DNA from: Cavenderia fasciculata
Lineage: Eukaryota; Evosea; Eumycetozoa; Acytosteliales; Cavenderiaceae
DNA: 64,000 bases
Direction of reading: 5' to 3'
Assembly (NCBI RefSeq): GCF_000203815.1
Contig: NW_004457723.1
Location: 806,001-870,000 of the forward strand
Part shown: positions 34,215-56,780 of the stretch, piece by piece
Layout of the letters: every line of letters begins with the position of its first letter
How positions within the stretch are numbered: the first letter of the stretch is position 1
Position numbers and translations under genes: made by a program
Notes under the pieces: model-generated
The model's input: only the letters and a program-made list of their open reading frames with translations
The model's database searches: none
Told to the model about the DNA's origin: nothing

Positions 34215-34237
34215 GATGTGGGTGATTGATTAAGATC
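34215..34237 (-). promoter_or_regulatory. Conserved upstream motif of array member B
   Basis: GATGTGGGTGATTGATTA plus AGATC, 148 bases upstream of the B start codon. The same motif with one change stands 115 bases upstream of member F (40271-40293), in noncoding sequence that is otherwise diverged. Confidence 0.5.
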
Positions 34238-34501
34238 AAAAAACCCACAAACTATTTTGGCTATTAATACCCAAGTTTTTTTATTTATGGATTTGGTTCT
34301 ATTTAATTAAAACGGGCATTGGCCACTACTTGATGCGGGTTCTGCTCTGCTCTGACTATGCATGAAGAGTCGGTTGTATAACTTTAAATCATAAATCTCA
34401 ATTTATATCTCTGCTGATCCTAGTAGTAATAACCTAATGATCAGAATCGTTGAACAAGAAAAGAAGAAATTTTGTTTTGAAAAAAAAAAATAGAAGGTTC
34501 C

Positions 34502-34925: not shown

Positions 34926-34932
34926 ACTTTAT

Positions 34933-37096: not shown

Positions 37097-38413
37097 TTAA
37101 ATCCACGTGATGATTGGTGGTGATGAGTTGGAATCACTCGAGCTCGAATGACTAGGACAAGCAATATTGTAAATGGAATTTGGTAATAGACAAATGGAAA
37201 AATCGTTATCCCTGTAACAAGAATTGGTGAGGTTGCAATACTCGGCGGCACACTTGCTAGCAATACAAGAGTTTAAGTTGTCGGGGTTATTGACTTGAGT
37301 GCAACTGTTGTCGTCCAAACAGTTAAAGTAGGATGTGGTGGCATCTGCACATTCAGAGTTGATAGTAGTTACAACGGAACATGTACCATTGACATCACCT
37401 TTGGAAAGGCATGTACAAACCTCGTTAAAGTTACATTCCGATTGTTTAAACAAGGAGCATGGAGCATTTGATGGTGCTGGAAGTGGGGTACAGACACCAC
37501 CATCCTTTGGACAGTAGAGACCTTGTGAGGCATCACAAGTTGATTGAGTAGGATTCTCGTCTCTTTCGTTGAATAAGGTACACGTTTGACCTAGACCAAG
37601 AGAATACAGTGCAGTGCATACATATGACGTCGAGTCGTTACCGACTTGATTGCATAATGATCCATCTCGACAAGCACCCCATGATATGGCTACTCCTGTG
37701 TTGTACATGGTACAGTCATCACCAATGTCAAGTTGAGGAGTACAGACATCGTTGTTATAATCGGTTCTATTACAAAATGTACCATATGGACATCCTTCTT
37801 GTGCCTCTTCACATGACAGTGGCATTTGACTATTACCAAATGAGCATTGAGAGTTGGAACAAGTTAATCCATAGGAACATTGATAATCTTGAGTACATGA
37901 TTCACCATATTGTGCATAATCCTTAAAAAGATATAATAATATTAATAAATGTTGTAATGATCACCGATTATTATTAATCCGCAAAAAATGATATAGAAAA
38001 AAATTATTAACATACAGATTGGACACATTTACTGTCGTAGCAAGAGAGACCTGGATAACATGATCCCAAGTATTGCTCATCCTCTAAACAGGCACCATTC
38101 TCTGGAATAAAGGCAGTACATGTACCACTCCAGTTAGAACCAAATTTGCAGTAAGAGTTGGAACAGAAATGCAAATCTGATAGATCACTAGTGAATCGTC
38201 AAAAAAAAACAAGGAGAGATCATTAATATATGAAGATTATGATGATGATGACGATGATGATGATGATATGTATAAAGATTTATCTACTTACCATGCATCA
38301 CCAATTAGTCCACATTTCATAGATGCACAATCTGCAGAGGCAAAAACCAATGTGGAAACTAGACCTATAGCTACCAAGGTACCAAATAATAAAACTTTAA
38401 AAAAATTCATCAT
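37097..38413 (-). CDS. Cys-rich secreted protein, array member E, lacking the hydrophobic tail
   Basis: Three exons (38292-38413, 38016-38187, 37097-37921) join in phase to 372 residues. It has a signal peptide (MMNFFKVLLFGTLVAIGL) and the family's Cys pattern (CYPGLSCYDSKC, CPYGTFCN, GDDCTM, LGLGQTC, GLYCPKDGGVC, CTCLSKGDVNGTC, NLNSCIASKCAAEYC). The frame stops after CPSHSSSSDSNSSPPIITWI. Tail-like sequence (FGLIKLSIAISIVLL) continues below in another frame. As read, the product would be secreted and not GPI-anchored. A small insertion or deletion near 37110 would explain this; a short undetected intron is less likely. Confidence 0.8.
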
Positions 38414-38850
38414 TAAAAAGGAATAGAATAGGTAGAAAATGATGTTTTATAAATGACATCCGATCGGATGTTTTAAGTACTTAGCTATTCGTCCCTAGGG
38501 CTAGTTCCTATACTTTTAATTACGAAAAAAAAAAAAAATGAGATTAACACGTCAGCTGATTGCAAGCACCCAGGGCAAAGAGCGATTTATATATCTTTTA
38601 TACCAAGAAGATCGAAAGGATTAAAGCCTGGGCCCACATGAATCGGAGATGTATACTCACTCCTATGCTCTTTATCTACTCTGGCAAAAGAAAAGAAATC
38701 ATAAAAAGAAAGATGGATACTTTAGTTGAACCCACTTTATTTATTTTTCAAGAGTATAAAATAATCCGAATGAGAATAAAAATAATTGATAATTCTACAC
38801 CCTATATAAATATATTACAAATGAAATAGATGGATATCGAGTTTTATTAA
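38414..38850. promoter_or_regulatory. Spacer between array members E and F
   Basis: Upstream region of E and 3' flank of F. A plus-strand open frame at 38560-38829 has no recognisable feature and looks like chance. Nothing else is seen. Confidence 0.5.
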
Positions 38851-40156
38851 TTAGAAAGGAATAATTATTGAAATTGATAATAGTAAAACCAAGACGATTG
38901 AAGGCGAAGATAAAGATGAGGAAAGAGATGGTTCCATGGTTGAATTGGAACTAGAGGAAGATGATGGAATTGAACAAACAAGACTATTGATAAGATTTAC
39001 ATATGGACAATCAACGATAGTTTCTCCTATATCTAAAGAGTAACAGCCTTCTGTATTACAGTATTCGACACCACACTTGCTTGCAGCGCATGAGTTTAAG
39101 TTTACAAGGTTACCGACTTCTACACATTGGTGTTTAGCCAAACAGGTAAAGTAGGACTTGAAAGCGCTGGGGCAATGTGCGTCGAGATTTGGTTTAACTA
39201 CACATTTACCCCATTGAGAATTCTCCAAGCAGACACACATCTCGCTAAAGTTACAGTAACTGTCGTCGAGACACTGATAATTTGATGAAGCTTGTATGGT
39301 GGTACAGACACCATCTTTGTTACAATAAAGACCTGGATTACAAGTTGATAGAGTTAGGGGGTCATTTGGGGTTGAGCTACACGTTTGACCTAGACCAAGA
39401 GAATAGAGTGCAGTGCATCTCGATTTTGTAGAGCTGTATTGGTTGCACATTGATCCATAAGGACATCCGTTTGAATTAATGGTACAGTCTTGACCGATGG
39501 CGAGTTGAGGAGAGCAGATATTGTTGTTTATATCGGTTGTGTTACAGAATTGACCATATGGACAGTTTAGATACTCAGAGACACAACCATCTCTACCTAG
39601 GGCACATTGACCACCGAGACAAATTAATCCTTTTGAACATTGAGAAGATTGAGTGCACGATTCACCATTTTGAGTATATCCCTATATCGGATGAAATAAT
39701 CATTAAATTAGTATGATAGGTGTATGAAGAATGGATCGATTAATCTTTTTACAATTTTATCAATCAATAATTTTAATATCATACATATTGGACACACTTG
39801 CCATCGTAGCACGAAAGACCTGGAGAACAAGCTACACCACCCGATGAACAGTTTCCATTCTCTGGTATAAAGGCAGTACAATTACCAGGCGAGGCATCGG
39901 AATAGAAGCAGTCAGAGTTGACACAAAATTTACTTGCATATAAATCACTAACAAAGTTGATAAAAAAAACAAATTGATTATTAACTTGAATAATGATATT
40001 GATGATGAAGATTTGGTATTGCAGAATGAAAAAAAAATCATCTTACCATTGTCCACCTAATTGGATACACTCTGATTTGGAAGGACATTTCATAGCATTA
40101 ATCGTGGTAGAAATTAGGCATTTAAAAGCAATAAATAATAAAACTTTGAATATCAT
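38851..40156 (-). CDS. Cys-rich secreted protein, array member F, GPI-anchor-like tail
   Basis: Three exons (40047-40156, 39785-39947, 38851-39681) join in phase to 367 residues. It has a signal peptide (MIFKVLLFIAFKCLIST), then CSPGLSCYDGKC, CPYGQFCN, GQDCTI, CPYGSMCN, LGLGQTC, GLYCNKDGVC, CVCLENSQWGKC, NLNSCAASKCGVEYC. It ends with a Ser-rich linker and VLVLLLSISIIIPF. Exon 2 and the start of exon 3 are very close to member G, so F and G are probably the youngest duplicates. Confidence 0.87.
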
Positions 40157-40486
40157 TGTTGAATGGTAGTTAAAGACAAGTAAAATAAATTAAATTGAAA
40201 CTTTTAAACTCGTATTGCCATCATGACAATGTCACATCTGAGAAATTTTAAAACCATACCAAATTATTTAGATGTGGGTGATTGATTAGGATCGGAAAAG
40301 AAAGGGTTGCCCAAAACTATTTTTAACTTTATAGAGTATCTCAATGAAATTGGGATTTCTTGTTTTTATTGATCTCGAGAGACTCACAATGGATCCAATC
40401 AATATTGCAATAACATAGCCTTTTACAAACTAGATCCCAATAGTCTATTTTTTTATATATAATTATTTTAATTAAATCATATTTAT
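40157..40486. promoter_or_regulatory. Spacer between F and G with the shared upstream motif
   Basis: The motif GATGTGGGTGATTGATTA plus GGATC lies at 40271-40293, 115 bases upstream of the F start codon, matching the one upstream of B. The rest is AT-rich and carries no gene. Confidence 0.5.
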
Positions 40487-41788
40487 TTAAAAGAAAAACA
40501 AAGTTGAAACAACAGACAATATTAAAACCAAAATGATTGGTGAGGATAGAGATGATGATAGTGATGGTTCAGTTGAATTTGAACTGGAGGATGTATCGTT
40601 CAAGGAGGAGGAGGAGGATGATGAAGGACTTGAGCAAACAAGACTATTGAAAGGATAAGTTGATGGACAAGAGAGGAGAGAGTCCAAAGCATCTAAATTG
40701 TAACAGATGTCGGTTTTACAGTACTCTACACTACACTTTCTAGAAGCACAAGATTCTAGGTTCATAATGTTACCGACTTCTACGCATTGGTTCTCTGCCA
40801 AACAAGCATAGTAGGCCTTGGTAGCACTGGCGCATTGTGTGTTGAGATTTGATATAACGACACATTTACCTTGTGAATTATTGGGACAGAGACACATCTC
40901 GTTATAGTTACAATCAGTGTCATCTTCACAGAAATCATTTGATGGAGATGGTAAAGGTATACAGTAACCATTGCGACAGTAAAGACCTAGAGTAAAATTA
41001 CAAGTTGTTAGATATTGAGGGTCACCTTCGAAGGTTGGGCTACACATTTGATCTTGATCACGGGAATAGAGTGCAGTGCAGCTAAGGGTTTTAGAGTCGT
41101 AGCTGCATATTGATCCATATGGACATCCGTCTACATAATGTGTACAGTCTTGACCGATGGCGAGCTGAGGAGAGCAGATAGAGGGTGAAACGGTTATGTT
41201 ACAGAATTGACCATATGGACAGGTATTTAGCCCAGAACTACAACGACTATTACCGAGGGAGCATTTACCACTGATACACGATAATCCTTTGGTACATTGA
41301 TATGATTGAGTGCACGAATCACCATTTTGAGTATATCCCTAAAAATAAGAATATAAATTGTCAATTGATTATTAGTTTGGTAGCTAGTTCAACAAATAAT
41401 AAATATAAAATGATTTAAACACCACTTACACATTGGACACACTTGCCATCGTAGCACGAAAGACCTGGAGAACAAGATGCACTACCGGAATCCGATGAAC
41501 AGTTGCCATTCTCTGGTATGTAGGCAGTACAAATACCAGGATAGGTGCCGTTGGTAATAATGCAATCAGAGTTGGCACATAATTGATATGAATCACTAAT
41601 AGTCAATAGTAATAAAAAAAAGAAATAAATCGATTAATAACGTTTGATGATCATTTGTATTACAGAAAAGTATCTTACCATTGTGCACCTACTTGGATAC
41701 ACTCCAAATTTGTATGACATTTGAGAGCATGTACCGTGGTGAAAACTAGACATGTTAAAGTTATAAATAATAAAACTTTGATCATCAT
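40487..41788 (-). CDS. Cys-rich secreted protein, array member G, GPI-anchor-like tail
   Basis: Three exons (41679-41788, 41430-41595, 40487-41338) join in phase to 375 residues. It has a signal peptide (MMIKVLLFITLTCLVF), then CSPGLSCYDGKC, CPYGQFCN, GQDCTH, CPYGSICS, GLYCRNGYC, CLCPNNSQGKC, NLESCASRKCSVEYC. It ends with a Ser/Asn linker and ILVLILSVVSTLFFF as GPI-type tail. The LGLGQTC segment of its relatives is changed to a charged version here (SRDQDQMC). Confidence 0.87.
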
Positions 41789-42064
41789 GATTGAAGTATT
41801 TAATAGATGAACCTGTAGACTAATCTTTAAATTCTATTCTTTTGAAAGTGAACTATCTATTTTATAATAGATAGTGAAGATCTTCACTATTTGAGTAGGC
41901 AGAACGTTCATTGAGGTCAAAACAATTTCTAATAATAAGAATAATATTTGTTTATAAACATTGATAGCCGAAGACGTTTGGCGGGTGATCACGATAGCTT
42001 CAACCAATGAACATCGAGTTGTTCAAAAATATCTTTTTCCAACAAAAATATAATTTTTATTATT
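41789..42064. promoter_or_regulatory. Upstream region of array member G
   Basis: AT-rich spacer with no gene. It contains a partly palindromic stretch, ATCTATTTTATAATAGAT, at about 41857-41874. Confidence 0.4.
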
Positions 42065-42178
42065 TTAAAATAAAGTTGAAATTGCAATTGATAACAGTAA
42101 AACCAAGATGATTGATGGTGATGATATTGATGGTTCCATGGTTGTCGTTTCATTTGAACTGGAATTAGAGGAGTGTGT
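42065..42178 (-). pseudogene. 3' end of an eighth Cys-rich gene (H), cut off by the patchwork
   Basis: The minus strand reads SSNSSSNETTTMEPSISS and then the tail ILVLLLSIAISTLF with a stop at 42065, the C-terminus of the Cys-rich family. Homology ends at about 42175, where a GT-rich sequence and the virus-derived repeat begin. A middle fragment of such a gene, on the same strand, stands at about 54470-54685 on the far side of the patchwork. Confidence 0.75.
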
Positions 42179-42187
42179 GGGTTGGGG

Positions 42188-42405
42188 GTTGGATCGCTGG
42201 CGCTCCCAAAAAAGTTTACAAGAATTCGCCCTTGCAGGGCTCATTATATATTAAATAAGTTAAAATAGTTAATTTTTTAACCTTTATAATTCTATAATTT
42301 TTTAGAATTAATTATTAACTTTTAATATTTTGTAAAAATTATAGAATTATAAAGGTTAAAAAAGTTATTTTGGATTATAAATTCATAATTTTAACCATAA
42401 TTGGA
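42188..42405. repeat. Edge repeat of the viral fossil, copy 1, with an internal hairpin
   Basis: It begins GGATCGCTGGCGCTCCC and continues with AAAAAAGTTTACAAG and GCAGGGCTCATTATATATT, then AT-rich sequence. It matches 45471-45725 in the same orientation. Within copy 1, a ~24-base arm at 42279-42303 is the reverse complement of 42337-42361 (TTATAGAATTATAAAGGTT), so the sequence can form a hairpin or cruciform. Copy 2 keeps only one arm. Confidence 0.8.
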
Positions 42406-42531
42406 TTGGAATTATAGGCAAACATAGTTCATAGAAAATGGATCAATGGAAAAAGATTGGTTGGTATCACAAGGTATTCCACTTCCATCACTATTTTGGA
42501 TTATCAATTGTCCATCTAACATACAACAGAT

Positions 42532-43337
42532 TCAACATGGGTGGATAAATAAAGTTGGAGATTGTTTTTGGTATGTTGACACTGTGACTATTTGAATATT
42601 GGGAGGTCTAAATCTTTCAGGAATAAAAACATCCGTATATACTTCTGAAGCTTCAGCTGTTGCTTGCATTGTCAATGTTGGAGGTGAATCAACACATAAT
42701 GTAACTAATTTACCAATTCTTACGATATGCATTTGGTTGTATGAATAGACATATGATCCTCCAGATACATTGTATTTAAATTGAACCCAATGTGTATAGT
42801 ATTCATAGAAATCCAATGGTGTTGGAATATAACCTGGTATTGGATTGACAAATGATAACTGATTTGTTTCTACAGATGGTGCATTGATAAATAATGATTT
42901 GATTGGTGTAATATTAATTGTTTCTCCAGTAATTTTGTTTGTGGCAAGAGATTCACATTCTATGTTGGAAATATCCAGCAATTGCATACTTACTTTGCCA
43001 TTTATTTCAAGATTATTTACTGTTGTTGTTCCATTAATACCTACACCCGATTGAGGGGTAATTGTATTTGTTTTCATTTCATTTCATTTGATTCAATTGA
43101 TTTGTCTACTTTTAAATTGTCACTAAATGTCTTGTGTCCATTAATTGTTTGATCTATTTCTGTCAATACCACTTGAGCAACCTTTTTAGATCCAATACTT
43201 GGTATGTCTATTGTTGATTGTGATGTTGTATCTACATTTAAAATTACTTGTAAATCTCCAAAAATTATTTGATTGGTTGTATTTTCTAGGACTAGTTGAT
43301 CTGTAATTGTCAATTCATCAACTTGTCCAATGGCCAC
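42532..43337 (-). mobile_element. Viral fossil part: fibre-like proteins (two adjacent frames)
   Basis: Two adjoining minus-strand frames (43074-43337 and 42532-43077). The first has beta-rich repeats of the kind seen in viral and phage fibre shafts (VDELTITDQLVLENTTNQ, IDQTINGHKTFSDNLKV). The second continues with VNNLEINGKVSMQLLDISN and ends in a compact, strand-rich domain that could be a receptor-binding knob (VRIGKLVTLCVDSPPTL, DVFIPERFRPPNIQIV). The fibre role is inferred from the repeat style. A second partial copy of the knob lies at 54215-54425. Confidence 0.55.
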
Positions 43338-43417
43338 ATCTTCAAATTCATTATTATAAATCTACAAATCTTGCTGTCATTTTTCTTTTTATATTAATTA
43401 TTAATCAATATTTAATA

Positions 43418-43729
43418 TTACTTTTTTCTAGCTCCTCTTTTTCTCTTGGCTCCACCATTAATCCCATATTGTGTTCCTCCAGCTTGTGTTCTTTTTCGTC
43501 TTGGTTTTTTTCCATATCCCAATTTATCTGTTACGTCTCCAATCTTGCTAGCATAAGGAACACCAGCATCACCAAGTGCCTTTGCTCCTCGTGATATTAA
43601 TTTGTTTTCTTTGACAAAATCATATGCTCTTTTAAACCAATCTCCAAATCCATCTCCTTGTTGGCCACCCAAACCTGTTGTGTGAATACAAGCTCCATCA
43701 TTTGAAATCCATACTCTGTTCTTGTTCAT
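43418..43729 (-). mobile_element. Viral fossil part: small basic, Gly-rich core/minor-capsid-like protein
   Basis: 103 residues, open throughout. The motif GLGGQQGDGFGDWFKRAYDF is followed by a very basic C-terminus (KKPRRKRTQAGG, GGAKRKRGARKK). Small proteins with a Gly-rich start and a Lys/Arg-rich end are standard in Polinton-like viruses and adenovirus relatives, where they sit inside the capsid or bind DNA. Exact homology is not established. Confidence 0.6.
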
Positions 43730-43751
43730 TTTTCTTTATATATAATTAAAT

Positions 43752-44132
43752 CTATATTTTAATTTCGAGTTGTAAATTAAAATCCTTTCTATAATCTCCA
43801 TTTCTACTTGTGTAAAGAAAATGATATTTCTCTTTGGTTGAAAATGAATAAATCTCTATAAATAATTTAAAAGGAATTGTCAGTGATAGTTCTTCCAACC
43901 AACTATGATCATTGTGAACTGTTGCGCAAAAGATTAAAACATTTGTTTGTTTGTTAGTACATTCATCTATAATCTTTTTAATAACAACAGTCTTGCCGCT
44001 ATTCTTTGGAGCACATACCAATATATTTGCATTTAATTGATTAAATAATTCTGATCCTTTTACATTTTTTGGTGGTTGTGGTAGTTTGATTGGTTCCACA
44101 ATTACATTATTGATTTTTGTTAGCTGTATCAT
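43752..44132 (-). mobile_element. Viral fossil part: A32/FtsK-HerA-type packaging ATPase
   Basis: Starts MIQLTKINNVIVEPIKLP and carries a P-loop (NILVCAPKNSGKTVVIKKI), then a hydrophobic strand (NVLIFCATVHNDHSW). This start and spacing are typical of the packaging ATPases of Polinton-like viruses, virophages and giant viruses. The remaining sequence is shorter than the family's usual ~250 residues. Confidence 0.75.
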
Positions 44133-44151
44133 TTTTATATATATGTTGATT

Positions 44152-44511
44152 TTAAAATTTGGTAAATTGAAATACAGCTGCAAATTCCAATTCATTTTCC
44201 AAATAATTGTTGTTTTGATCCACACATTCAAAATAATAAGCTCCTTGTATAATGGCCCCACTTTTGTTTGTAAAATGTAAATTACAATTGGTGGTGGATA
44301 TTTTTGAAAAGGAAAAAAGGTTGTTGTCACTAATCAATGAAGTTCTAATTGTGCACACATCCCCAATATGAAGTGTTCCATCCAAACTATAGAGTTTTAA
44401 TGTAATAAGATCTGGAACAAAATCTAAATTAATTTGAACCATCAACCTTGCATGACCACCAGGAATGATACCACTAATTGGGATTGTTTTAATAATTGTC
44501 AACATCACTTC
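44152..44511 (-). mobile_element. Viral fossil part: unrecognised strand-rich protein
   Basis: A minus-strand frame with GGHARLMVQINLDFVPDLITLKLYSLDG and TNKSGAIIQGAYYFECVDQNNN. I recognise no family. Its position beside the packaging ATPase suggests a structural role. The sequence homologous to the host NTPase begins at about 44512, so its far end is probably lost. Confidence 0.4.
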
Positions 44512-45455
44512 CCACGGGATACAATTCACTAGCGGGGATAGAGGTAAAAACCATTTGGAGGGCATATTGACGTACATTACGAGGGGCTTTTACTCTGGTT
44601 TTGGTGGAACTCTTCTTACCATTGGGGTCAGTTTGTGTTTTGAGCTCCACATAATCTTGTTGAGGGAACGACTCGAAGCGTTCGGGAGGGACGACAAAAA
44701 TGAGGTGGAATGTGGTATACTTGGTAGATGCATCACCCGTTGTTGTTGTGGATGTATCACCAGTTGTTGTTGTTGTTGATGCATCACCCGTTGTTGTTGT
44801 TGTTGTTGTTGATGCATCAGCCATTGTTGGTGTTTTGTTGGATCTATTGGGGTTAAGGGATCAAGGTTATAAGTGATATGAGTGAGTTCTTTAAAAGAGA
44901 CAGGGTGTTGGTTGGTTTTGGTGATTTGAAATAGATATTTTCCTGCAAAGGAATCAATTGCTGGGAAGTTCAAATCGGTTGGTCTAACATAGGTTTCTGG
45001 TGGGAAACGATTGTCAGAGTTACGTCTTTCAACTAGCTCGGCAGTATTCTTTACAGAGCCAAAATTTGTGGGGAAAAAGTGAAGGTGGCTTTCGCAAAGA
45101 TTGTCTTCTTCTTCTTCAAGTGATCTGATAATATATCTGCCTCCATTACTAAGAGTCTGGTGAGACAGCTGCTCAAAGAGTAAACCGCCAATCTGAGTTG
45201 TACCAACCAAAGAAATTTTTTTGATAACTTCTTCCCTCCAATTCCAATAGAATCTTTGAACCATCTTTTCTTTGACGTAGTTGGAAGCGAAGGAGACTCG
45301 TGGCACCGAAAAATCTGGACAGTTTGGTTCGACGTCCAAATGAATCACTATGTGACTTCCTGACTGTGGTGAGTCTGGCATGTTGATACTACTAACGCAT
45401 GCTTCAAGGTCTGTACAGGAGATGGCATTGACGAGAAGTCCTTGATCAGATACAG
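44512..45455 (-). pseudogene. 3' fragment of a Crinkler/RHS-type NTPase gene, inside the viral fossil
   Basis: The minus strand is clearly homologous to the last exon of the gene at 49431-53861 (FYWNWREEVIKKISLVGTTQ, LLFEQLSHQTLSNGGRYI, RPTDLNFPAIDSFAGKYLFQ). Gln-rich expansions sit where the other copy has Thr/Ala repeats. Homology starts at about 45450 and ends at about 44512, with virus-derived sequence on both sides. No N-terminal or P-loop part is present, so it is a remnant. Confidence 0.8.
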
Positions 45456-45470
45456 TGTGTGTCTCGGGTG

Positions 45471-45725
45471 TTTGGATCGCTGCGCTCCCAAAAAAGTTTA
45501 CAAGCATTCGCACTTGCAGGGCTCATTATATATTAAATAAGTTAAAATAGTTAATTTATTTTTAGAAATATTTATTTTTATTGTATTTTATTATTTTTTA
45601 GAATTAATTATTAACTTTTAATATTTTGGATAGAATTATAAAGGTTAAAAAAGTTAAAATTATTTTGGAAAAATAGAAAAATATTGGTTTGATTTAGATT
45701 TTGGATTATAATTTCATAATTTTAA
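45471..45725. repeat. Edge repeat of the viral fossil, copy 2
   Basis: A direct copy of 42188-42405, with a few substitutions in the first 90 bases and small insertions in the AT-rich remainder. It is preceded by GTGTGTCTCGGGTGT, which resembles GTGTGTGGGTTGGGGGT before copy 1. It lies between the NTPase fragment and the helicase. Confidence 0.8.
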
Positions 45726-45780
45726 CTTTATAATTTGGATAGAAAATTGATATAAATTATTTCTTTCCAATATATATAAA

Positions 45781-47051
45781 ATGGAAAAATTAATATTTGG
45801 ATCAAATTTGGAAAATAATTTCAACTTGGAAACATTACAAAAAATGTGCTACCAGTGTACATCCAATGATAATTACCAAGACATTATTCATTATATCAAG
45901 CAATACTTTGTGAAATTGCATGATACACCAACGATAAAGGGAATGGATGGAGAACAAAGATTTATTTCATTGGCATATGAAGATGCTAAAAAACAATTCT
46001 TTTTAAATTCATTGGTGTGCAAAGTAAATGGAAATGACAATCAAATAAGAAAATGGTTCTTTGATGTTGATTGTGAAAGATATTCTACTACAATGGATCC
46101 AAAAAAACCAAAAGTATTTATAGAAAACCAAATAAAATATCTAAATATGTTTCATGGATTTAAATTTACTGATAGAAAAGAGTTTGACAAAAAAATGGTA
46201 GATCCAATTGCAGAAGCAATAGCAAAGGAAGGAGTAGAATTTCTTTGGAATCACATTGATATTGTCCTTTGTTCAAACAACCAAGAAGAGTATAAATATT
46301 TAAAAGGTCATACTGCCAAGGTTGTGTCTGGAAAGAAACAAGAAACAATGGTTTATCTAAGAGGTGTCCAAGGTGCAGGAAAGTCCTCTTTAATAGAAAT
46401 AATTACTGCTTCTATTGGACACAATGTAGTTTATACTTATCTGATCCACATATTTGTCTTCCAAATGCACACAACGAAGATATTGTTGGTAAAACTGTAA
46501 TTGTATTTGAAGAGATTCCAGTAAAATCTAGTAATGATTGGAACCAATTTTCAAGTGCACAAAAGCACTTTATTACTGGTAAAACAATAAAGATTAATCC
46601 AAAACATAAAAACCAATACTTTATACCCAATATGATTAGTGGATATGCTATTTCTAATCAATGGGCAATTAAAGTAGAAAATGGTGATAGAAGATATTTC
46701 ATTCCCACAATATCTAAATGCAAAGTTGGTGACACTGAGTATTTTAAGAAATTGTACTCTTTTATACACAACGATTTGGTAATGGAAGCATTTTACTGGG
46801 AATGTATTGTTATTGAAAAAACCAATCCATTCAATGAGAGATTGATTCCAGATACCATACGTAAAAATGAAATATTAAATGATCATTTGATTTCTATTTA
46901 TGAATTTATCAAAAATAAATATGTTTTAAAAGGGTTGGGTATCGAAAAAATAACAAGAATGGCTTTGTATAAATGGTATGAAGATTATTGTAAAACAAAT
47001 AAAATTAAAACAATTCCAAAGAATGAAGCTTATATCACTCCAACCACTTGA
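45781..47051 (+). mobile_element. Viral fossil part: superfamily 3 (D5-like) replicative helicase
   Basis: The start codon at 45781 follows the edge repeat. The sequence holds the Walker A motif YLRGVQGAGKSSLIEI, an acidic Walker B-type motif in VIVFEEIPV, and the SF3 pair ISNQWAIKVENGDRRYF. This is the helicase half of the primase-helicase of Polinton-like viruses. The part is broken, so no intact protein can be made from it. Confidence 0.8.
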
Positions 47052-47420
47052 TTCTTTAAATGGTATACCATTGTATCTATTTAATAAAAATTTAATTGCA
47101 TGATAACCGCATGTTGTACTATTTGATGCTTGAGCAATGACTTTGTTTACTTTGAATTTTAAATAATAATCTGGATTGATTTCATCAATTAAATCTTTTA
47201 ATTGTTTCATAAAATCATCGGTTGGTTCTTGACCAAATGAATCATAATACTCTACTGATTTATCTTTATCTGCGTCAATATATACTGCAACCCAATGACT
47301 TCCTGGTTTGTTGTGTGGATCCAAATTCATAATAAATGACATCTTGTCTTTTGGTTCCAATAAATTTAATTGGTCACTTGCTATTACTCTTTCAAATCCC
47401 TTTCTATGATATGGTTTCAT
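46926..47420 (-). mobile_element. Viral fossil part: adenovirus-type (Ulp1-fold) maturation protease
   Basis: The minus-strand sequence has KPGSHWVAVYIDADKDK with the catalytic His, EYYDSFGQEPTDDF with the Asp, and SNSTTCGYHAIKFLLNRY with the catalytic Cys, the order found in adenain and in Polinton proteases. Its 3' end overlaps the end of the convergent helicase part. Confidence 0.8.
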
Positions 47421-47466
47421 TATTCTTTCAATTTCGCTATCATAAAGACCTTTGTTTGATCTTCCA

Positions 47467-48375
47467 CTACCAATCTTTTGTTTTTTTTTTCAAATCTTGA
47501 GCAAATGATACAATTAAATCAATGACACTAATTCTTTGATTCTTTACCATGTCTTTTAATTCATTTCCTAAATTTGTAGATAGTTTAGTAGAGGTCATTG
47601 TTGAATTTAAATACTCTTTTACAAAATCATTTGTAGCTGTTAGATTGTTTCTTGGGACCATTTCTATTAAATCATTTGGTAAAATTTGATCAACCATTAT
47701 TTGTTGTTGCTGTTCTGTTTGTTTTGCTTGATTTACTTGATTTGCTTGAATTGTTCTTTCCAATTCCAAAAGATTCTTTTCTTTCATTTCATTGTTCATA
47801 TCTATAATTGATTGTAATTGTTCATCTATTTGTCTTGTATTTTCATACTTGCCTTCCAATTCTTGTATTCTCTTTTCTGTCAACTTTTGATTGTAAAGTA
47901 TTTCCATTGATCTATCATCTTTTTCTTGTCTTCTCTTTAATTTCTCCTCCTTTGCTTCAAACAACATTGACAATCTCTTTTCCAATTGATCAAATCTATC
48001 ATTTTCTTTTTTTAGAATTGGTATCTCTTGCTGATCATCTTTTGTTAGATCAATGATCTTTTTCTTTGTTTCTTTATCCAATTCTTGTTGATTCTTGAGT
48101 ACAGACTCTCTAAAGTTGGCATCCTGTATTGATTTGATCATGGCAACTTCATTTGGATTTGACCAAGCCAATACAGGGCTGCTTTCTTTAGAGAGCTGTT
48201 GTTGTTGTTTCCTCTCATCATCTAATGCTTCTCTAATCAACTTTCTAATCAATTTTTTATCATTCTTTTTTGATCTAATGTAAACTCTATCTACTCCATG
48301 TTGTATGTATCGTCCTCTTTTATCTTTTTTTAATCTTAATGGTCTCTGTTTTTGCTTCTTGCCTCCAATCATCAT
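47467..48375 (-). mobile_element. Viral fossil part: long charged coiled-coil protein
   Basis: 302 open residues. The start is very basic (KKQKRPLRLKKDKRGRY). A Glu/Lys/Gln-rich coiled coil follows (DQLEKRLSMLFEAKEEKLKRR, NEMKEKNLLELERTIQ). It lies directly upstream of the protease part, on the same strand. In Polinton-like viruses proteins in this place are often large and poorly conserved; I assign no function. Confidence 0.55.
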
Positions 48376-48498
48376 CTTGTATTATTATACAATATAATTA
48401 TATTTAAAACTTCATAATCATTTTATTCTTTATAATATCTGATTCTTTAATACTATTTATAGGTTGTTGTTTTATCTCTTTCTCTACAACTTCATCGT

Positions 48499-48738
48499 TT
48501 ACAATGAAATTATTTTTTTGTTCATTTGTTCAAAGTCTTTTTTGTTATTATCTATTACTATTCTTTTCTTTTTTACAGGAGCTTTGTTTTTTGTTCTTTT
48601 CTTTGTATTATCATTATCAGAATCATTATCAGAATCACTATCATAGATTATAAATTGATTTTTTCTCGCATCACGTGCTTTTTTTAGATTTAGAGCAGAT
48701 GTAATTGATCTTTTATCTTTTTTTATATCTTGATCCAT
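48499..48738 (-). mobile_element. Viral fossil part: small Lys/Asp-rich protein
   Basis: 79 residues, Lys-rich at both ends with an acidic Ser/Asp/Asn repeat in the middle (IYDSDSDNDSDNDN). No family is recognised. It is assigned to the element by position only. Confidence 0.4.
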
Positions 48739-48979
48739 TCTCTTTATTATATATATATATATAGAATAATTTATTATATTACTATTTTTACACTACTTTT
48801 ATAATACTTTTTCACTACTTTATTTAAAGACAAAATAGCGACAGCAAATCACTTTTATTAGAGTAATAGTAAATTATAGTAATTTTATAATAATGTTTTA
48901 CTAATTATATATAAAAGTATGTTGATTACACATAAAAAGATATTCTATAAATTCACACAATAGAATCAGTGGTACTAAT

Positions 48980-49370
48980 TCTAAATTTAAATATAATATT
49001 ATATATTATCCTCAAGACAGGTTTGACAGAGTGGCATTATTACAAGCGACAATACCAAAATCATTTAATACAGTTGGAAGAGGATTAAATACTTTTGAGT
49101 TGATTGAAGATGATCAATCAACTATTATTTCTATTCCTGTTGGTAATTATTCTAGAAAATCATTACAAGACACATTGGAAAAGCAATTGAATGCAGTGTC
49201 ACCAAACAATGTCAAATATGCAATTAGTTGGCCGACATCACAACAACCAAATACTATATTTACTTGTGCGTCAACAAGATCCAGAATATTCAACCAATCG
49301 TTTCTTTTACTAGTAACAATCTTTTGTTTCGTCATTTAGGTCTTAATAAAGATTCAACAACCACCCACCG
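48980..49370 (+). mobile_element. Viral fossil part: penton/minor-capsid-like protein, partial
   Basis: The plus strand reads GTNSKFKYNIIYYPQDRFDRV, then LLQATIPKSFNTVGRGLNTFEL and IISIPVGNYSRKSLQDTLEKQLN. The IPKSF and GNYS motifs with this spacing are those I associate with penton-like proteins of Polinton-like viruses and virophages. The 3' part is missing; the host NTPase gene's end follows at 49431. Confidence 0.6.
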
Positions 49371-49430
49371 GATTCTTAATATCCATTATATGTTTGTGTT
49401 GTTTGGTTTGTGTTAAAAAAAATATATATT

Positions 49431-52400
49431 TTATTTTACAATTGTTTTTGGATCAGAATTAATTATTGCATCCTCACCGCTTATCACAGGATACAAGACA
49501 GAGGGGGGGACAGAGCTAAAAGCCATTTTGAGTGCATATTGATGCACATTTTGAGGGGCTTTTACTTTGTTTTTGGTGGTGGTCTTCTTGCCAGGGTTAT
49601 TGGCGTCAGGTTGTGTTTTGGCTTCCACATATTCTTGGCGAGGGAACGAATCAAAGCGATGAGGAGGGACGACAAAAAAGAGGTGGAATTGGGTACCAGC
49701 TGTTGTGGATGCATCAGTTGTTGTTGTTGCTGTTGTTGTTGTGGTTGTATCTGTTGTGGTTGCAGCGGGGTTTTTTGTAGATGGATCAAGATGGAAAGTG
49801 ATAAAATTGAGCTCTTTAAAAGAGACAGGATGGTTGGTTTTGGTGATTTGAAATAAATATTGTCCCATAAACGAATCAACTGCTGGGAAGTTTAAATCGG
49901 TTGGTCTAACATAGGTGTCAGGTGGGAAACGATTTTTGGAGGCAAGTCTAGAAGCTAGCTCGGTGGTACCCTGAATCGAGTCGCATTTGGCGGGGGCAAA
50001 GTGAAGGTATTCGCCCAGATTGCCTTTCCCATCAAGTGATCTGATATGAAATTCACCGCCATTAATAAGAGTCTGGTGAGACAGCTGCTCAAAGAGCAAA
50101 CCTTCGATCTGACTTGTGCCAACTAGAGAAACTTTTCTGATAACTTCTTCCCTCCAATTCCAATAGAATCTTTGAACCAGCTTTTCTTTGACGTAGTTGG
50201 AAGCGAACGAGACTCGTTGGCGCACAAAATCTGTGCCTGGTTCGGCGTCCAAATGAATCACTTTGTGACTTCCAGACTCTGGAGAGTCTGGCATGTTAAT
50301 ACTGCTAATGCATGCTTCAAGGTTTGTACTGGAGATTGCATTGACGAGAAGTTCTTGATCAGGTCTACTGATTTTATCAAGTACATATCTAAAGAATTAA
50401 GGAGAAAGTAAGGAATAGGTCAACAATGAATGGTACATAATTATAACTATATATTTTCGCATACCTAGGTATTCCACCCCATCTAAAGTATCGACTTTGA
50501 ACATCTTGAATTGGATGATCAAATATCAAGCAGTTTGAAGCCAGAATCTCCAATGATGACCATAGTGGCATGATAATTCGACTTGTTTTTCCATCCTGAA
50601 GAAAAAAAAAGAATTGATTAGAACGAGTTTTAGAATCAATTAATTAATGGAATTAACGAACCTTCATGTACTCCTCATAATTTGACTTGTTTGGTGACGA
50701 CACAATCAAAGTGGGTCTTTTGGATGGCAGTGGGCGCTGACCATCAACGAGGTAAAGAGATGATGAATCTGGTCGAAGAAGGATATCCTTGAAAGAGGAT
50801 CTATCTCCTTGGTGAACGATTGGACTCCCATCCTCGGTATAAGTAAAGTGGTAGACGGGTGCATCAACAACATCGTATATTATTGATTTGACTAAAGGGT
50901 CGCTTCTCTTGCGGTACAGGTAGTAGAAAAGAAATACTGATTTGCCGATACCAGGATTTCCTTTTACCAGTACAATTGAACCTTGACCATGAAGAGCTTG
51001 GTGATTGCTGATGATATCATACACAGGGATATAACAATCTCGTACATAAATCTTGTTGTATTTCTCTCTCTTTGTTGGGAATAGTGACTCACTCAATTTG
51101 AGACAACAAATTGTCGAATCAGAATCCAGAGTAGATTCTCCAAGAGAGACTTTTTGTTTCACTGCTTCCTCAACTATTTCGGCCATGTTAAGTTTATTCC
51201 AAAATATATTCACATTTGGATCAGATACTAAAAAGAGTGAGAGTTAAATTAGTATGCCATACAATGGAAGTATGAAATGTTTTAAAAAAGGAATGCGATA
51301 GGAAGAAAGTTGTAAAAAGATGATAGTGATTTTTAATTATCTGATGGATATAGGAAGTGCTGTTAACCGGATAGGTGAGTGAAACAAACTAATAAAAGGT
51401 AGAGGTTTTGAGTGTCCAGTGATATGAATGGTTGATATAATATTAGGAATGGTTGGAGATGGATTGACCAACAACAATGAGGCAAGTGAGGGGCCTATAA
51501 TGTGAGGAACAAACAAGCAAAACAAAATGACTAGATTTGAATGATGGTGATCGGTTGATGCACCAATTAGATATGTTTGACAAAAGGAGTGGATAAGATG
51601 GAAAAGAGATGGGTGATAAAAATAAAAGGATGTAGAGCGATAGAGAGTGGTGTAGCTTGGTGAATGGACAATGGTATTTGATTTGGATCAAAGGATTATA
51701 AATATATCAACGAACACAAGAGGTCAATGATATGTAAAGATGAACAAGCAAAACTAAATGACAAATGTTTGGTTGTACAACAATGAAGCAAGTGGTTAAA
51801 AGGAAAGAGATGGGTGGTGCATTGGTAATGAAAAAAAAAAGATAATCAAAAGAAATGGTGCAAAAAAGAGGAGCAATGATAGTGATTTTTAATTATTTGA
51901 TGGATATAGGAAGTGTTGTTAACCGGATAGGTGAGTGAAACAAACTAATAAAAGGTAGAGGTTTTGAGTGTCCAGTGATATTAATAGTGGTTGATAATAT
52001 TAGGAATGGTTGGAAATGGATTGACCAACAACACTGAGGCAAGCGAAGGGCCTGTAATATGAGAACAAACTAAACAAAATGACAAAATGACAAGTGATGG
52101 TGATTGGTCGATGGACAATGGTATTTGATTTGGGTCAAAGGATTATAAATATATCAATGAACAAAAGGTCGATGATATAAAATATGAACAAACAAAATGG
52201 CAAATGTTTAGTGTTTGGTTGGTACCGTCCAACAATGAAGCAAGTGGTTAAAAGGAAAGAGATGGGTGGTGCATTGATTGGTAATGAAAACAAAAAGAGG
52301 AGCAATGATAGTGATTGCAACATTGGTAATGAAGAAAATGTAAGGTTTCAAAAGGGAGAGAATTACAAATGAAAAAAATTGGTGAGGGATGACAGTAGAG

Positions 52401-53861
52401 AGGAAATGGTATGAAAGATAGTGCAATAGTGATTGTGACTGGTTACCTTGTAGGGGAGAAGGGTGGGGTCCCTTTTGAAACTGTTTAAACTAACAAATAG
52501 TTCACTACCGTAGATAGGCGAGTATTCCTTGAACAAATCACATGGCCACTTTACAAGAGACTCTCCTTTGGGTAAAGATTTGGTGTTGGAATCAAAATCA
52601 AAGATTGCTCCTGGTTTTAGTCTGCGTTGTGACTTGAAATATCCTATCCAAGAATCGATGTCTGTAAAATCCCATTCATTTGGGTCTAAATAGAATAGAA
52701 TAGAATAGAATAGAATAGAATAGAATAGAATAGAATAGAATAGAATAGAATAGAATAGAATAGAATAGAATAGAATAGAATAGAATAGAATAGAATAGAA
52801 TAGAATAGAATAGAATAGAATAGAATAGAATAGAATAGAATAGAATAGAATAGAATAGAATAGAATAGAATAGAATAGAATAGAATAGAATAGAATAGAA
52901 TAGAATAGAATAGAATAGAAACAGAGGGTCATTAATTTTTTCAGGTCAAGGAACTAGAACAAAAAACATACCCTTTTCTCTCCAGCCATTATCCATTTCT
53001 TGAATATTTGTTTGATATAATATTATAGTAAGTAAGTTGCAAATAAGATAAGGGAATATAAACAAGAATAAAAAAGGTTCACGGCGAAATGAACAAGAGA
53101 TTGAGTGAATGAATATTGAAAAGATGATGACGATGGTGAAGACGATTTCTCTTATGGATAACTGATGGATAGATAAATATGAAATATGTGGATAATAAAT
53201 GGCAAAAAAAGAACAAATAAAATGTATCAGAAAGAATACATAGTGAACTGCTGCGTATGAGTTCTTTTTATCATCAGACTCCAAAAAAAAAAAAGATTAT
53301 ACTAGTAATTATAAACAAAAAATAAAATGTGTGGTTTTATTTTAAATATTAATAAAATCATTGGAAGATGGGTGAGCGATGATCATCAGACATGACTTTA
53401 ATATTAGGGTTGATGGTTGTGATTAATAGATGACTTGAACCACAACACAGAGTGACTAAACGAGAGAAACGAGAATAATGATGGGTGGTGGTAGTGGAGG
53501 GAATCTGACGAATGACAATCATGTGCGAACAACAAGACGAATATGAGTGGTTAAATAGTAGATAGATGTATCATTACTTACCTCTACTGCTGTGCTGATG
53601 TGATAGCGATTGTTGAATTAAAAGTTGTTGAACAGCCAGATAGAGCTTCTTTGCAGGTGCTACGACTATGCCACATTTACCAAAATCAGCCTCTGTAAAC
53701 ACTGCTATACTCTCTCCATCTACATCATTATCAAGAAGCATCTGGGCATATTCTTCTCTTACTCGAACTTCTTTTGTAGCCCATTCTTTTACTTGTTTTG
53801 CTGACCATCGTTTGAAATCGCTTTGTGATGCAATTTCTGTTATTGACAAAGCATTATACAT
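49431..53861 (-). CDS. SAM-domain, Crinkler/RHS-type P-loop NTPase
   Basis: Minus-strand exons seen: 53582-53861, 52972-52998, 52447-52685, 50662-51227, 50466-50596, 49431-50388. Exon 1 encodes a SAM domain (WSAKQVKEWATKEVRV, DGESIAVFTEADFGKCGI). The third exon (EWDFTDIDSWIGYFKSQ) may be a header. A P-loop NTPase follows (VLVKGNPGIGKSVFLFYYLY) with the WGGIPR motif, then the C-terminal FYWNWREEV, GLLFEQLSHQTLINGGEF and DLNFPAVDSF. This architecture is that of Crinkler and retrotransposon-hot-spot proteins. One exon junction (around the 1.2 kb intron) is unresolved, so a small exon may be missed or the gene may be damaged. Function in dictyostelids is unknown. Confidence 0.75.
51310..52320. 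repeat. Two tandem ~0.5 kb units inside one NTPase-gene intron
   Basis: Sequence from about 51321 (GATAGTGATTTTTAATTAT, GTTAACCGGATAGGTGAGTG) recurs from about 51879 with the same order of blocks. ACAATGAAGCAAGTGG with GAAAGAGATGGGTGGTGCAT occurs at about 51780 and 52232. Unit 2 is shorter by about 115 bases. A third partial start (GAGGAGCAATGATAGTG) occurs at about 52300. No coding evidence. Confidence 0.75.
52687..52920. repeat. (TAGAA)n pentanucleotide satellite in an NTPase-gene intron
   Basis: About 47 perfect copies of TAGAA, starting at the 3' splice site (the acceptor is TTTAG before 52685 on the minus strand). On the sense strand the run is TTCTA. All lies within one intron. Confidence 0.95.
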
Positions 53862-53978
53862 GTTATGATTAAAAGAGATGTCGTAAGATAATAGAAAACA
53901 TGGGTTCTCCTTTTAATGTTGTTGTTGTTGTTGTTGTTGGTATTGAAATTCTTTGTTTGAAACACTCTGACACCACTT

Positions 53979-54002
53979 TTTTTTTTTTTTTTTTTTTTTT
54001 TT
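53979..54002. repeat. T homopolymer upstream of the NTPase gene
   Basis: About 24 consecutive T residues, 120 bases upstream of the start codon of the minus-strand NTPase gene; just before it is a (TTG)n run at 53921-53940. Confidence 0.9.
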
Positions 54003-54214
54003 CATTCTCTTGAAAACAACAAGACCGACTCTTTGTCTTATGTGAACAAAGATTAGTACTCCTATAGATTCAGCTCAACTTTGAACGATAACAGCAATTT
54101 ATATTTAATATACCAACATTCTATGATGACAGTAACATTCAACCTATTACATACAACATTGATAATCAATGTTTTGTCTATTGTAATTGCTAGAACCACT
54201 CTCACTAAAGCATT

Positions 54215-54425
54215 CTCGTTTATCATCCAATCCATGTTATATTTCAACTTTGTATGTCTATTCATACAACCAAATCCATTTTGTAAGAATTGGTAAACTG
54301 GTTACACTCTGTGTTGATTCACCTCCAACCTTGACAATGCAAACTACAGATTCAGAAGTATATACGGATGTTTTTATTCCTGAAAGATTTAGACCTCCCA
54401 ATATTCAAATACCAAAAACAATCTC
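54215..54425 (+). mobile_element. Second, partial copy of the viral fibre-like knob
   Basis: The plus strand reads VRIGKLVTLCVDSPPTLTMQ and EVYTDVFIPERFRPPNIQI, nearly the same as the minus-strand knob at 42532-42750. It is in opposite orientation to that copy, short and broken, and ends about 20 bases before the GT-rich sequence at 54430. It marks the right side of the patchwork. Confidence 0.8.
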
Positions 54426-54429
54426 CAAC

Positions 54430-54853
54430 GCCCAACCCACACACAGAGGATGCAGTAATGCCAACAAGAAAAACCATTTTCCTCTGAAATGGAACAAGAT
54501 TGTCCTAGACCAAGAGAATTGAGAGCTATACATGAGTAAGTATCGTTGGTGTTTTTGTTGCACATTCCATGTGGACATGAATTTGGATAAGTGGTGCAAT
54601 CCACGGCCGTGTCATTACCTATCGAGTATTGAGGCAGGCAGACTGGTGCTACAAATTCACTGCCGGTGCCACAGAATATCTGCATTACTTATCCCCCCTT
54701 TTTTCTACACGTGTACATGTACAGAGGTATGTTCAAAATGGAGGTTCATGCACACATACTGATCAATGTCAAATTGGGTTAAACTGTGTTAACTCCTTGT
54801 GTACTATAGTCGTTAGTAATGCAGAATATCAATATCATATTATTTTATTGTGA
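54430..54853. pseudogene. Fragments of a Cys-rich array gene in opposite orientations
   Basis: The minus strand at about 54685-54470 reads CLPQYSIGNDTAVDC, CPHGMCNKNTNDTYSCIAL and LGLGQSC, the middle of a family member. Directly beside it, the plus strand at about 54729-54820 reads RYVQNGGSCTHTDQCQIGLNCVNSLC, the exon-3 start of such a gene, preceded by an acceptor-like TGTACAG. The two pieces should be on one strand, so part of the gene has been flipped. The minus-strand piece faces the C-terminal piece at 42065-42178. Confidence 0.7.
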
Positions 54854-54893: not shown

Positions 54894-56080
54894 TTAGTCA
54901 TGCTGGTTCAGATCGTCATCTACTAGTGCGTGGTAAGGATACCGATCCTTACAAAATGTACGAATTGATCTATGTCTTTGAGTATTTTGTGATTTCTTCT
55001 CGAGAAAAGATTCACCATTTTCTTTGACAAGTGGACCTAGTGATGAATGAATTTTACTCCATACACTAGTATAGTGTTCCACTGTGGCTTGGCTTGGTTC
55101 TGGAAGGATTTGCTGGCTATGTCCTAGAGAATCAATTAAAAATCCAAATAATTCATTCCATGGTACACAAAGAGTATATACACCACCATTGACAATAGAT
55201 TTACTGTTGATCTCAACTTGTCTATTATAGCTTGAGAGTAATAACCTAGCCTAAATTCGTTGAGAACAATTCTGATAAATAATAATAAAAAGATTATTAA
55301 TAATCTTTAAACATTTGACTGATTGATTGATCATACCTTTTCCAACGATCTTCATTCTCTAGAACAGAGATTTCAAATTGTCTAGTGATTTTTTTATAAA
55401 AAGAGGTGTATTTGATAATAAACTTTGTTTTTTTGGGTTCAATGACAACATAGTCCCCTGACGTGGGTGTTTGATCAAAGGGGAGATGAGGTTCATCCCT
55501 TTTCCAAATACCAATAGCTAAAAAGTTATACAAAAGTTTGAGATGGATTTGGATCGACATCCATGATATTCCTGGTTGAAATCTCTCCAATATGATATCA
55601 AATTCGTCAATATTATTATTATCCAACTCGTTTTCCACATCTCGATGGATAACGTCCATCTGTTGATCAGTGACGTTTCCTCTTCCTCCTGCTCTTAAAA
55701 GACTATCTTCCAAACCAAGATTTAAAATTAATTCACGATTTTCATCTGTCTGTCTAGTAAATATTCTAATCTCTAATGTTGATTTGAAAGATGAATGTTG
55801 GGTTAATTAATGTAAGCTAGCTTTTTTGAAGAAAAATATTTATAGATAGTTCTTTTTATACATACGAGGAGTAAACTCTTCAACACAACCACGTAATTCA
55901 TAAAACACCAAATAACCATTTGGGGTGCGCCTTTCAAAACAATCAATGGTCACCTGTAAGAGGACTGACCCTTCCAATTCTAAATCAACCAGATCATCGT
56001 TAAACTTGTAAGTTTCTTTCATTTTCTCTAACCATTCACGTGTATCATCTTTAGACCAATATTTAGGATCTTCAAGAAAG
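54894..56080 (-). pseudogene. Broken gene with SAM-like N-terminus, unknown function
   Basis: Exon A (55866 to about 56080) reads YWSKDDTREWLEKMKETYKFNDDLV and EGSVLLQVTIDCFERR, a SAM-like pattern. Exon B (55337-55772) joins it in phase and reads DSLLRAGGRGNVTDQQMDV, ERFQPGISWMSIQIHL and FIIKYTSFYKKITRQFEISV. The third exon starts in phase at about 55275 (IVLNEFRLGYY), but coding-like sequence soon switches frame (VEINSKSIVNGGVYTLCVPW to NQHD, stop at 54894). The 5' start is unclear: the AAGGATATTTAGGAT region near 56075-56100 contains a short tandem duplication. It may be a relative of the SAM/NTPase gene next door, but no P-loop is present. I do not recognise the middle part. Confidence 0.55.
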
Positions 56081-56780
56081 GATATTTAGGATTTTCAAGA
56101 AAAGAATTGAATAAATAAATAATGAAAGAGACTGATGTTCGAATCATGATCCACAACATACGTTTTTGATTCCAAAGTAAATTTGTAGTATTACTATTGA
56201 TCAATAAATCAGCTGATTATGATAATCATAATAAAAATATAATAATAAAATTATTTTGAAGCAAGACAAACCTCTCTCACTTTCTCTCTCATTTGGTTAG
56301 TTTAGAAAGAAATAGAGATAAATAATAATAATAATAATTAAGTAGATACGACGAAAGTATTGAGTAAATTAGATCTACCGTCATACATTTCGATACCACA
56401 AGATTATTATGTTGCTCCGACTTTTATTTGAAACTAAAATTTTTTGGGGATTGTCTCAAACTATCTGTTTTGTGGTGGGTAGTTGTTTGGTGACCACCCC
56501 ACTTTTAAGTGTCAACAAGACGACGTCGAATCATGATGGTTCGGTTGAATAGCCGCTCTCGTTTGTATTTCTTATATTAACGACACCGCTGTGTTTTGGA
56601 TCCAAAAAAAGATCCTGAACAAAAATGTATTTTGGTACACTACCCAACTTTTAAGAATGAATCCAAACAATCCTATCCTATCCTTTGGTTCATTCATTCA
56701 TTCTTAGTTATTTAATCAACAAACCATTACATATATTATTATCCATTCATTATTATTATTCTTTTAAAAAAAAAAACAAC
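56081..56780. promoter_or_regulatory. Intergenic, no gene seen
   Basis: Upstream region of the small GPI-type protein gene. It contains (ATA)n near 56324-56337 and AT-rich sequence. The stretch at 56420-56660 is less AT-rich but has no open frame of note. Confidence 0.5.

Follow-up and report, generated by a model that had tools for sequence, protein, structure and literature searches.

Within a 64,000-nucleotide stretch of the genome of Cavenderia fasciculata (formerly Dictyostelium fasciculatum), C7:806001-870000 and referred to here as the window, genes of virus type lie in two blocks, 42173-44500 and 45455-49360, and each block meets the 3' end of an NTPase gene of Crinkler/RHS type. A first-pass annotation had described this arrangement, which was confirmed, and the question it raises is whether such genes attract insertions or whether a virus-like element has picked one up. 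The region 42173-54444 is very probably a Polinton-like provirus element (E1) of a 'cargo type', in which a gene combining a SAM domain with an NTPase module (SAM-NTPase) is the cargo. An element of this type holds, between shared GTGTGTG repeats, a capsid and packaging module and, just inside one end, a slot with a spliced gene whose SAM-domain header is constant and whose NTPase module varies. The genome searched was that of C. fasciculata, 31.0 Mb in 21 contigs, and labels such as C21, C13, C8, C11, C7b and C12a denote loci or elements on the correspondingly numbered contigs.

Terminal repeats, target duplications and related elements

E1 forms one insertion, bounded by terminal repeats and flanked by a duplicated 6-bp target, AGAGGA, and the ends proposed for it in the first-pass annotation (42175-54450) lie within a few bases of the element and its target duplication. 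Duplication of a 6-bp target is a trait of Polintons. The repeat at 42173-42406 recurs in the window from 45455, and a genome search with it gave at least 22 places (23 rows, one of which was an overlapping sub-match). Its outer edge is sharp, with GTGTGTG at 11 inspected termini, the right end of C11 being two bases short. Identical 6-bp flanks were found for four of the five opposed repeat pairs: AGAGGA in the window, AAATGC in C21, CCTCTT in C13 and GTTGGT in C8.

C21 (12,873 bp) and C13 (12,083 bp) are complete insertions with different target duplications, and each carries a SAM-NTPase gene in the slot. Both have the order repeat, inverted fibre tail, SAM-NTPase, protease remnant, coil, 48k, penton, major capsid protein, spike, ATPase, core, fibre, repeat. 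The earlier suggestion that the element had picked up an NTPase gene is supported, since the window element, C21, C13 and C11 all have a SAM-NTPase gene between their terminal repeats.

The C8 element (16,154 bp) has the repeats and the capsid module in common with the cargo type, and its left arm holds frames for a 578-aa helicase, a 370-aa rve-chromodomain integrase and a 646-aa protein. The integrase is a single open frame matching rve at 34.5 bits (cut-off 32.6) and Chromo at 26.6 bits (cut-off 25.1); scans of cargo-type loci gave no rve match. Nor did those loci yield helicase, integrase or 646-aa sequences, except for remnants of the 646-aa gene in C12a and, over 70 bases, in C11. At the DNA level the match to C8 is confined to the terminal repeat (where present) and to the sequence from ~8.9-9.3 kb onward, which C13 and C21 match to the end and C1 and C9 for part. 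The cargo-type arm lacks the C8-type helicase, integrase and 646-aa gene, with the cargo apparently in their place, and the 646-aa remnants are consistent with such a replacement. The candidate for a double jelly-roll major capsid protein is a 448-aa protein of C8 with relatives in other dictyostelids, one of them named major capsid protein by UniRef; it matched nothing in PDB, and nothing in Pfam above cut-off. Proteins of Acytostelium, Tieghemostelium and Heterostelium were among the matches in the protein searches.

Several further observations concern the element family. A more distant relative lies at C7:59255-65204, with helicase 35% and capsid 59-72% identical. On C12, presumably at the capsid matches at 133.5-134.8 kb, part of a deposited 'putative glutathione S-transferase' shares 75% identity with the viral capsid protein, and this entry probably comes from a wrongly joined gene model. 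Seven elements (C14a, C12b, C7b, C2, C13b, C13a and C21) have an inverted copy of the fibre gene 3' end beside the cargo-side repeat; no such copy was seen at the cargo end of C11 or the helicase end of C8. From the position of this copy, the cargo-side end may have originated as a copy of the fibre-side end.

A recurrent slot with differing NTPase modules

The slot is recurrent. A SAM-domain first exon lies no more than 3 kb inside the repeat, on the inward-reading strand, at 11 of the 22 listed repeat places, with 76-909 bp between the repeat match and the SAM DNA match. Strand was part of the SAM-exon filter, and the listed repeats on the opposite strand are other element ends, or C5. The SAM exon was overlapped by 22 of the 118 rows of the genome DNA search, and 21 of these were examined, a 28-bp inverted sub-match within the C13b hit being excluded. 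Eleven of the 21 have a full upstream repeat and the window copy has a 20-bp remnant.

The ratio of nonsynonymous to synonymous differences (pN/pS) in the SAM exon was 0.43 for nine copies over 78 codons, and 0.49 for ten untrimmed copies in which C13b and ragged ends are included; viral genes compared between C8 and C21 gave 0.19-0.32. Taken as a bare ratio, pN/pS suggests that the SAM exon is under constraint. At C20:111271-114608, a diverged SAM exon is followed by a Crinkler-type module related to that of C9, and neither a terminal repeat nor a viral match was seen in 10 kb; this locus may be a host progenitor, a domesticated copy or an old relic.

The module behind the SAM exon varies, and judged by best profile match, in some cases below cut-off, there appear to be at least four kinds. 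The window and C11 have a Crinkler-type module and C7b a diverged one. C21 and C13 share an nSTAND5/DAP3-type module (99% identical) to which C2 has a relative at 37-39%. C1 has a weak KAP-type module, with later exons common to C13b, and C14a has a DUF6826 module of which C5 holds a 44% fragment. The slot module of C9 is a 516-aa frame after a copy of the second exon of the window gene, with fungal relatives that include Crinkler-headed proteins, and that of C4 is of Crinkler type and lies beside a protease. No recognisable module was found in C12a, C12b or C18. The nSTAND5, KAP and nSTAND3 matches are below the Pfam cut-off, DAP3 is above it in C21 and just below it in C2, and DUF6826 is above it; it may be that some of the kinds are P-loop families related to one another.

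The module of Crinkler-RHS (CR) type aligns with proteins named Crinkler in their sources and has an invariant NPG.GK, and its Pfam match to RHSP (E 0.06) is below cut-off. The Crinkler header PF20147 is not at the N-terminus, where SAM domains are present instead, and the C-terminal parts of the modules gave no convincing Pfam match to a nuclease or other toxin domain. Pattern scans of viral contigs with the capsid and NTPase alignments matched 48 and 73 stretches, among which no relative was confirmed; on these patterns, free relatives with SAM-NTPase cargo were not found in the contigs scanned.

The left and right repeats agree at 241/245 aligned bases in C13, 247/249 in C21 and 247/248 in C8, so these insertions look recent. 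Between C21 and C13 the tract from the NTPase module to the intergenic sequence is 99.6-100% identical and the SAM exon 99.2%, while the sequence from the protease remnant to the core is 94.6-98.6%, the fibre 90.9%, the repeats 91.6-94.6% and the later introns 94.7% identical, and the first intron is largely unalignable. This mosaic fits what is expected from module exchange between copies, other histories being possible. Recognisable protease sequence has been lost in the same way from both elements (alignment columns 100-400: C13-C21 212/212, C13-window 103/206). Since they have this loss in common but differ in flanks and target duplications, a defective element reached two sites, and we infer that elements of the C21/C13 type are mobile in trans. 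The integrase of C8-type elements would be what moves them. A comparison of nonsynonymous and synonymous substitution rates (dN/dS) for the cargo of C21 and C13 was uninformative because there are almost no changes.

Probable nested insertion and gene content of the window element

The first virus-type block meets the NTPase 3' end at 44489-44500, and the second meets another NTPase 3' end at 49361-49431; the two NTPase copies are 76% identical across 972 aligned bases. At 44489, the contact between the 'spike' gene and the NTPase is a deletion junction with a 7-bp microhomology, GACAATT. A deletion at this motif would have removed the spike-to-protease stretch of E1 and fused the spike gene to the NTPase 3' end.

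The left NTPase 3' fragment, outside a low-complexity stretch, is ~99% identical to the C11 gene and is cut off by the terminal repeat of E2, a second element, which is of helicase type and has deletions of its own. In the P-loop exon, the window gene and C11 differ at 1 of 195 codons. It is likely from these similarities that the E1 gene resembled that of C11 and was then cut by E2. The right NTPase 3' part (49431 to ~50400) is a different variant, 74% identical across residues 25-225, and recombination must therefore have replaced the right half of E2 and part of the E1 gene. A single simple insertion was rejected as the origin of the duplicated 3' part. The first-pass proposal that the element copied the 3' part of the gene is not the simplest account, the left fragment being cut off by E2 and the right part being another variant. 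The second contact would reflect E2 nested in the E1 NTPase gene, with deletions and recombination, in some order, giving rise to both contacts. The window has several internal deletions, and several of its genes have broken reading frames.

The gene identities given in the first-pass annotation fared unevenly against profiles. The helicase (DUF5906, 1e-10, Pfam) and the protease, which is above the Pfam cut-off, were recovered in the window itself, and the packaging ATPase was above cut-off in the C8 relative only (Pox_A32, 23.7 bits against a cut-off of 22.8). The fibre-like gene stayed below the Pfam threshold, the basic core-like protein had no match in Pfam or PHROGs, and the penton-like gene had no Pfam match above cut-off and no PDB sequence match; the core-like and penton-like labels are putative and follow from a fixed place in other copies. 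Nothing decisive came from PHROGs and PADLOC scans of the parts, and PDB sequence searches with the NTPase, the capsid, the C21 module and the penton gave no useful relative. The candidate major capsid gene is absent from the window and present in relatives.

The predicted exons of the cargo gene are 53861-53582 (SAM), 52685-52447, 51227-50662 (P-loop), 50595-50465 and 50388-49431, and in a simple model exons 3-5 are open in frame. Inside an intron of this gene there is a long tandem array of a 5-bp unit (52690-52925), and the adjoining intron stretch, 51320-52316, has diverged internal duplications that recur in many loci.

Outside the element, cysteine-rich genes of secreted type form a tandem host array at ~32600-42172 and 54451-54850. 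Both flanks of E1 resemble members of this array (42081-42172 against 38867-38958, and 54494-54601 against 39379-39489), so that E1, to judge by the flanks, seems to have landed in one of its genes. Just beyond the right end, at 54894-56085, lies a SAM/Pointed-domain gene (3.5e-7), the remaining parts of which have no clear family.

Table 1. Features of the inserted element and its borders, in window positions
Feature	Position	Strand	Basis or remark
Left target-site duplication, AGAGGA	42167..42172	.	Identical six bases at 54445-54450
Terminal inverted repeat of outer element E1, fibre-side end	42173..42406	+	Begins GTGTGTG
Fibre-like gene, split over two frames	42532..43361	-	Sub-threshold BppL_N; single open 330-aa frame in C21
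Basic core-like protein	43418..43735	-	Place conserved in C8, C11, C13 and C21; no profile match
Packaging ATPase, ~400 internal bases missing, junction near 43893-43895	43752..44150	-	Comparison with C21, C13, C11 and C8
Small conserved gene labelled 'spike' (label without profile support), cut at 44500	44151..44500	-	126 aa in C21
Crinkler-RHS-like NTPase gene, 3' part, assigned to E1	44489..45454	-	~99% to C11
Terminal repeat of second element E2, beginning within NTPase coding sequence	45455..45740	+	NTPase sequence on left side only
SF3-type helicase gene of E2, frame broken; deletion at 47031-47034 puts protease end directly after	45742..47034	+	
Adenain/Ulp1-type protease reading frame, homologous part ~47051-47489	46926..47489	-	Peptidase_C48 3.2e-11
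Coiled-coil-like gene (our own label)	47467..48381	-	Fused with protease as one 481-aa frame in C8
Penton-like gene, cut at 49360	48926..49360	+	302-aa frame in C8
SAM-domain and Crinkler-RHS-like NTPase cargo gene	49431..53861	-	Five predicted exons
Inverted copy of fibre gene 3' end	54253..54411	+	Adjoins cargo-side terminus, likewise in C21 and C13
Right terminal repeat of E1, final 20 bases remaining, remainder deleted	54425..54444	-	
Right target-site duplication, AGAGGA	54445..54450	.	Matches left copy

Competing explanations and comparison with known systems

That Crinkler/RHS-type NTPase genes are host genes which attract virus insertions, as RHS genes attract retroposons in trypanosomes, is very improbable. 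The terminal repeat of E2 does begin within NTPase coding sequence at 45455, and Crinkler-type genes without virus neighbours are present in the genome, but the terminal repeats and target duplications of C21, C13 and the window element enclose the NTPase gene, which does not lie outside them, and the gene that was cut is itself cargo. One element next to one cut gene (n=1) is not enough for a hot spot. Virus marks were defined as the listed helicase, protease, terminal-repeat and capsid matches, with SAM-only matches excluded, and sequence no more than 10 kb from a mark makes up 1.9% of the genome. Four of the 13 Crinkler-type hits are within 5 kb of a mark: those of the window and C11 are inside repeat pairs, that of C7b follows a SAM exon and a single repeat (the stretch fetched showed no capsid gene), and C1:604243, which may lie outside any element, is 4.9 kb from a capsid match. 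The other nine are more than 100 kb from a mark or on a contig without one. This genome-wide count supports no insertion preference, and the host hot-spot explanation was rejected; the first-pass interpretation is supported for the pick-up of the gene, and not for the attraction of insertions or the copying of the 3' part.

Still less credible is a random pile-up of unrelated fragments, or an assembly or repeat artefact. Several internal deletions and broken frames would agree with it, but the outer ends carry an exact target duplication and copies on other contigs have the same gene order. An assembly artefact in particular is unlikely, since other contigs show the arrangement again, with repeats that match and target duplications that differ.

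Less likely than not, though placed slightly ahead of its alternative, is the possibility that cargo-type elements are capsid-bearing eukaryotic satellites, deficient in replication and mobilised in trans by autonomous relatives, with a cargo slot in which a SAM header is joined to exchangeable conflict NTPases of Crinkler/STAND type. Conflict systems are known to include NTPases of such kinds, and the cargo would act as an effector in conflicts between viruses, elements and host. Ranking close behind, and somewhat unlikely in itself, is the explanation that an ancestral element captured the SAM-NTPase gene as a passenger of no benefit, and that module variety arose by ordinary recombination with related host genes. 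Relatives of the modules do occur away from virus marks: C21:1192997 is 68% identical to the C21/C13 module, C1:1384055 is 56% identical to the C9 module, and C5:3267683, where window DNA has no match in 10 kb, stands at 45%. Against a mere passenger, the SAM header is nearly unchanged (by the nine-copy pN/pS) while the module differs, and the slot is found again in elements from which other genes have been lost. The constraint could predate capture, however, so the passenger explanation stays viable.

Several observations weigh against the cargo-type account. The C11 repeat pair has no matching target duplication, and in the simplest model of the window gene exon 2 leads into exon 3 out of frame. 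Besides the window, nine of the 21 SAM-exon matches have no same-strand repeat; among these nine, that at C5:1305k has an opposite-strand repeat ~2.3 kb away, and a coil fragment and a KAP-like module lie near that at C12:946.6k. For the slot modules of C9 and C4 no SAM first exon was found. The SAM loci of C20 and C14:1249k have no viral match within ~10 kb, and SAM-NTPase genes may therefore also exist as host genes. Lastly, E1 exon 4 is only ~93% identical to C11 and the E2 insertion is visible on one side only, so that the history of the window is not fixed.

The elements resemble Polintons and Polinton-like viruses in their inverted repeats, 6-bp target duplication, adenain/Ulp1-type protease, A32-type ATPase and capsid candidate, and the C8 element has, like Polintons, an rve integrase with a chromodomain. 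Unlike Polintons, none of the 13 C8 frames scanned gave a match to a protein-primed DNA polymerase B, a canonical Polinton trait for which no genome-wide search was made, and the cargo-type elements lack the replication/integration arm and carry a SAM-NTPase gene. Dictyostelid Polintons, including an element of D. fasciculatum, have already been published, according to the available text of Yutin et al. 2013 and of a 2015 metagenome study (PMC3671162, PMC4642659). SAM-NTPase cargo is not mentioned in that text, and neither 'crinkler' nor 'sterile alpha' appears in the 2013 main text. A literature search for 'Cavenderia fasciculata' with 'Polinton' gave no paper, and a 2023 paper on endogenous viral elements of protists (PMC10120064) mentions Amoebozoa, while its main text contains none of 'dictyostel', 'cavenderia' and 'cargo'. 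The literature searches, in the text of the papers that they reached, turned up no account of SAM-NTPase cargo.

An association of Polintons with Crinklers, and the suggestion of carriage, are also already known. In Phytophthora sojae, as set out in the available text of PMC3726527 (2013), the flanks of 63 duplicated CRN genes contain Polinton sequence, the repeat reported as most abundant, and the authors suggest that transposable elements may have carried gene copies or aided unequal crossover. The evidence given there is of repeat-masker matches in 2-kb flanks, whereas here the gene lies inside terminal repeats, bounded by target duplications, in a recurrent slot with differing modules. The present elements would supply an element structure behind this kind of association, and a puzzling neighbourhood becomes a testable unit: a virus-like mobile element with Crinkler-type and related NTPases as differing cargo.

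The slot genes are like CR proteins in having a header followed by variable modules, among them NTPase modules, and their relatives include Crinkler-headed fungal proteins with PF20147; they are unlike them in that the header here is a SAM domain and the gene lies inside a virus-like element. CR proteins are reportedly the subject of Zhang et al. 2016. A review (PMC5289972), in its available text, describes them as a header with variable C-terminal modules, including NTPase modules, and reports their interpretation as toxins. For the header-module shuffling of such proteins, the elements offer a concrete vehicle.

A parallel to the proposed satellites may lie in bacteria. P4-type phage satellites carry variable defence or effector cargo in a fixed slot. 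The cargo-type elements would resemble them in a fixed cargo slot, a presumed related helper and varied conflict-type genes, and differ in being eukaryotic and in having kept capsid genes and lost replication genes, their dependence on a helper being presumed only. The finding suggests that eukaryotic capsid-encoding elements can be satellites which, like those of phages, trade replication genes for accessory genes. If so, the slot would be a viral counterpart of the defence islands of phage satellites, and Polinton-like elements a vehicle that spreads Crinkler-type effectors between eukaryotes.

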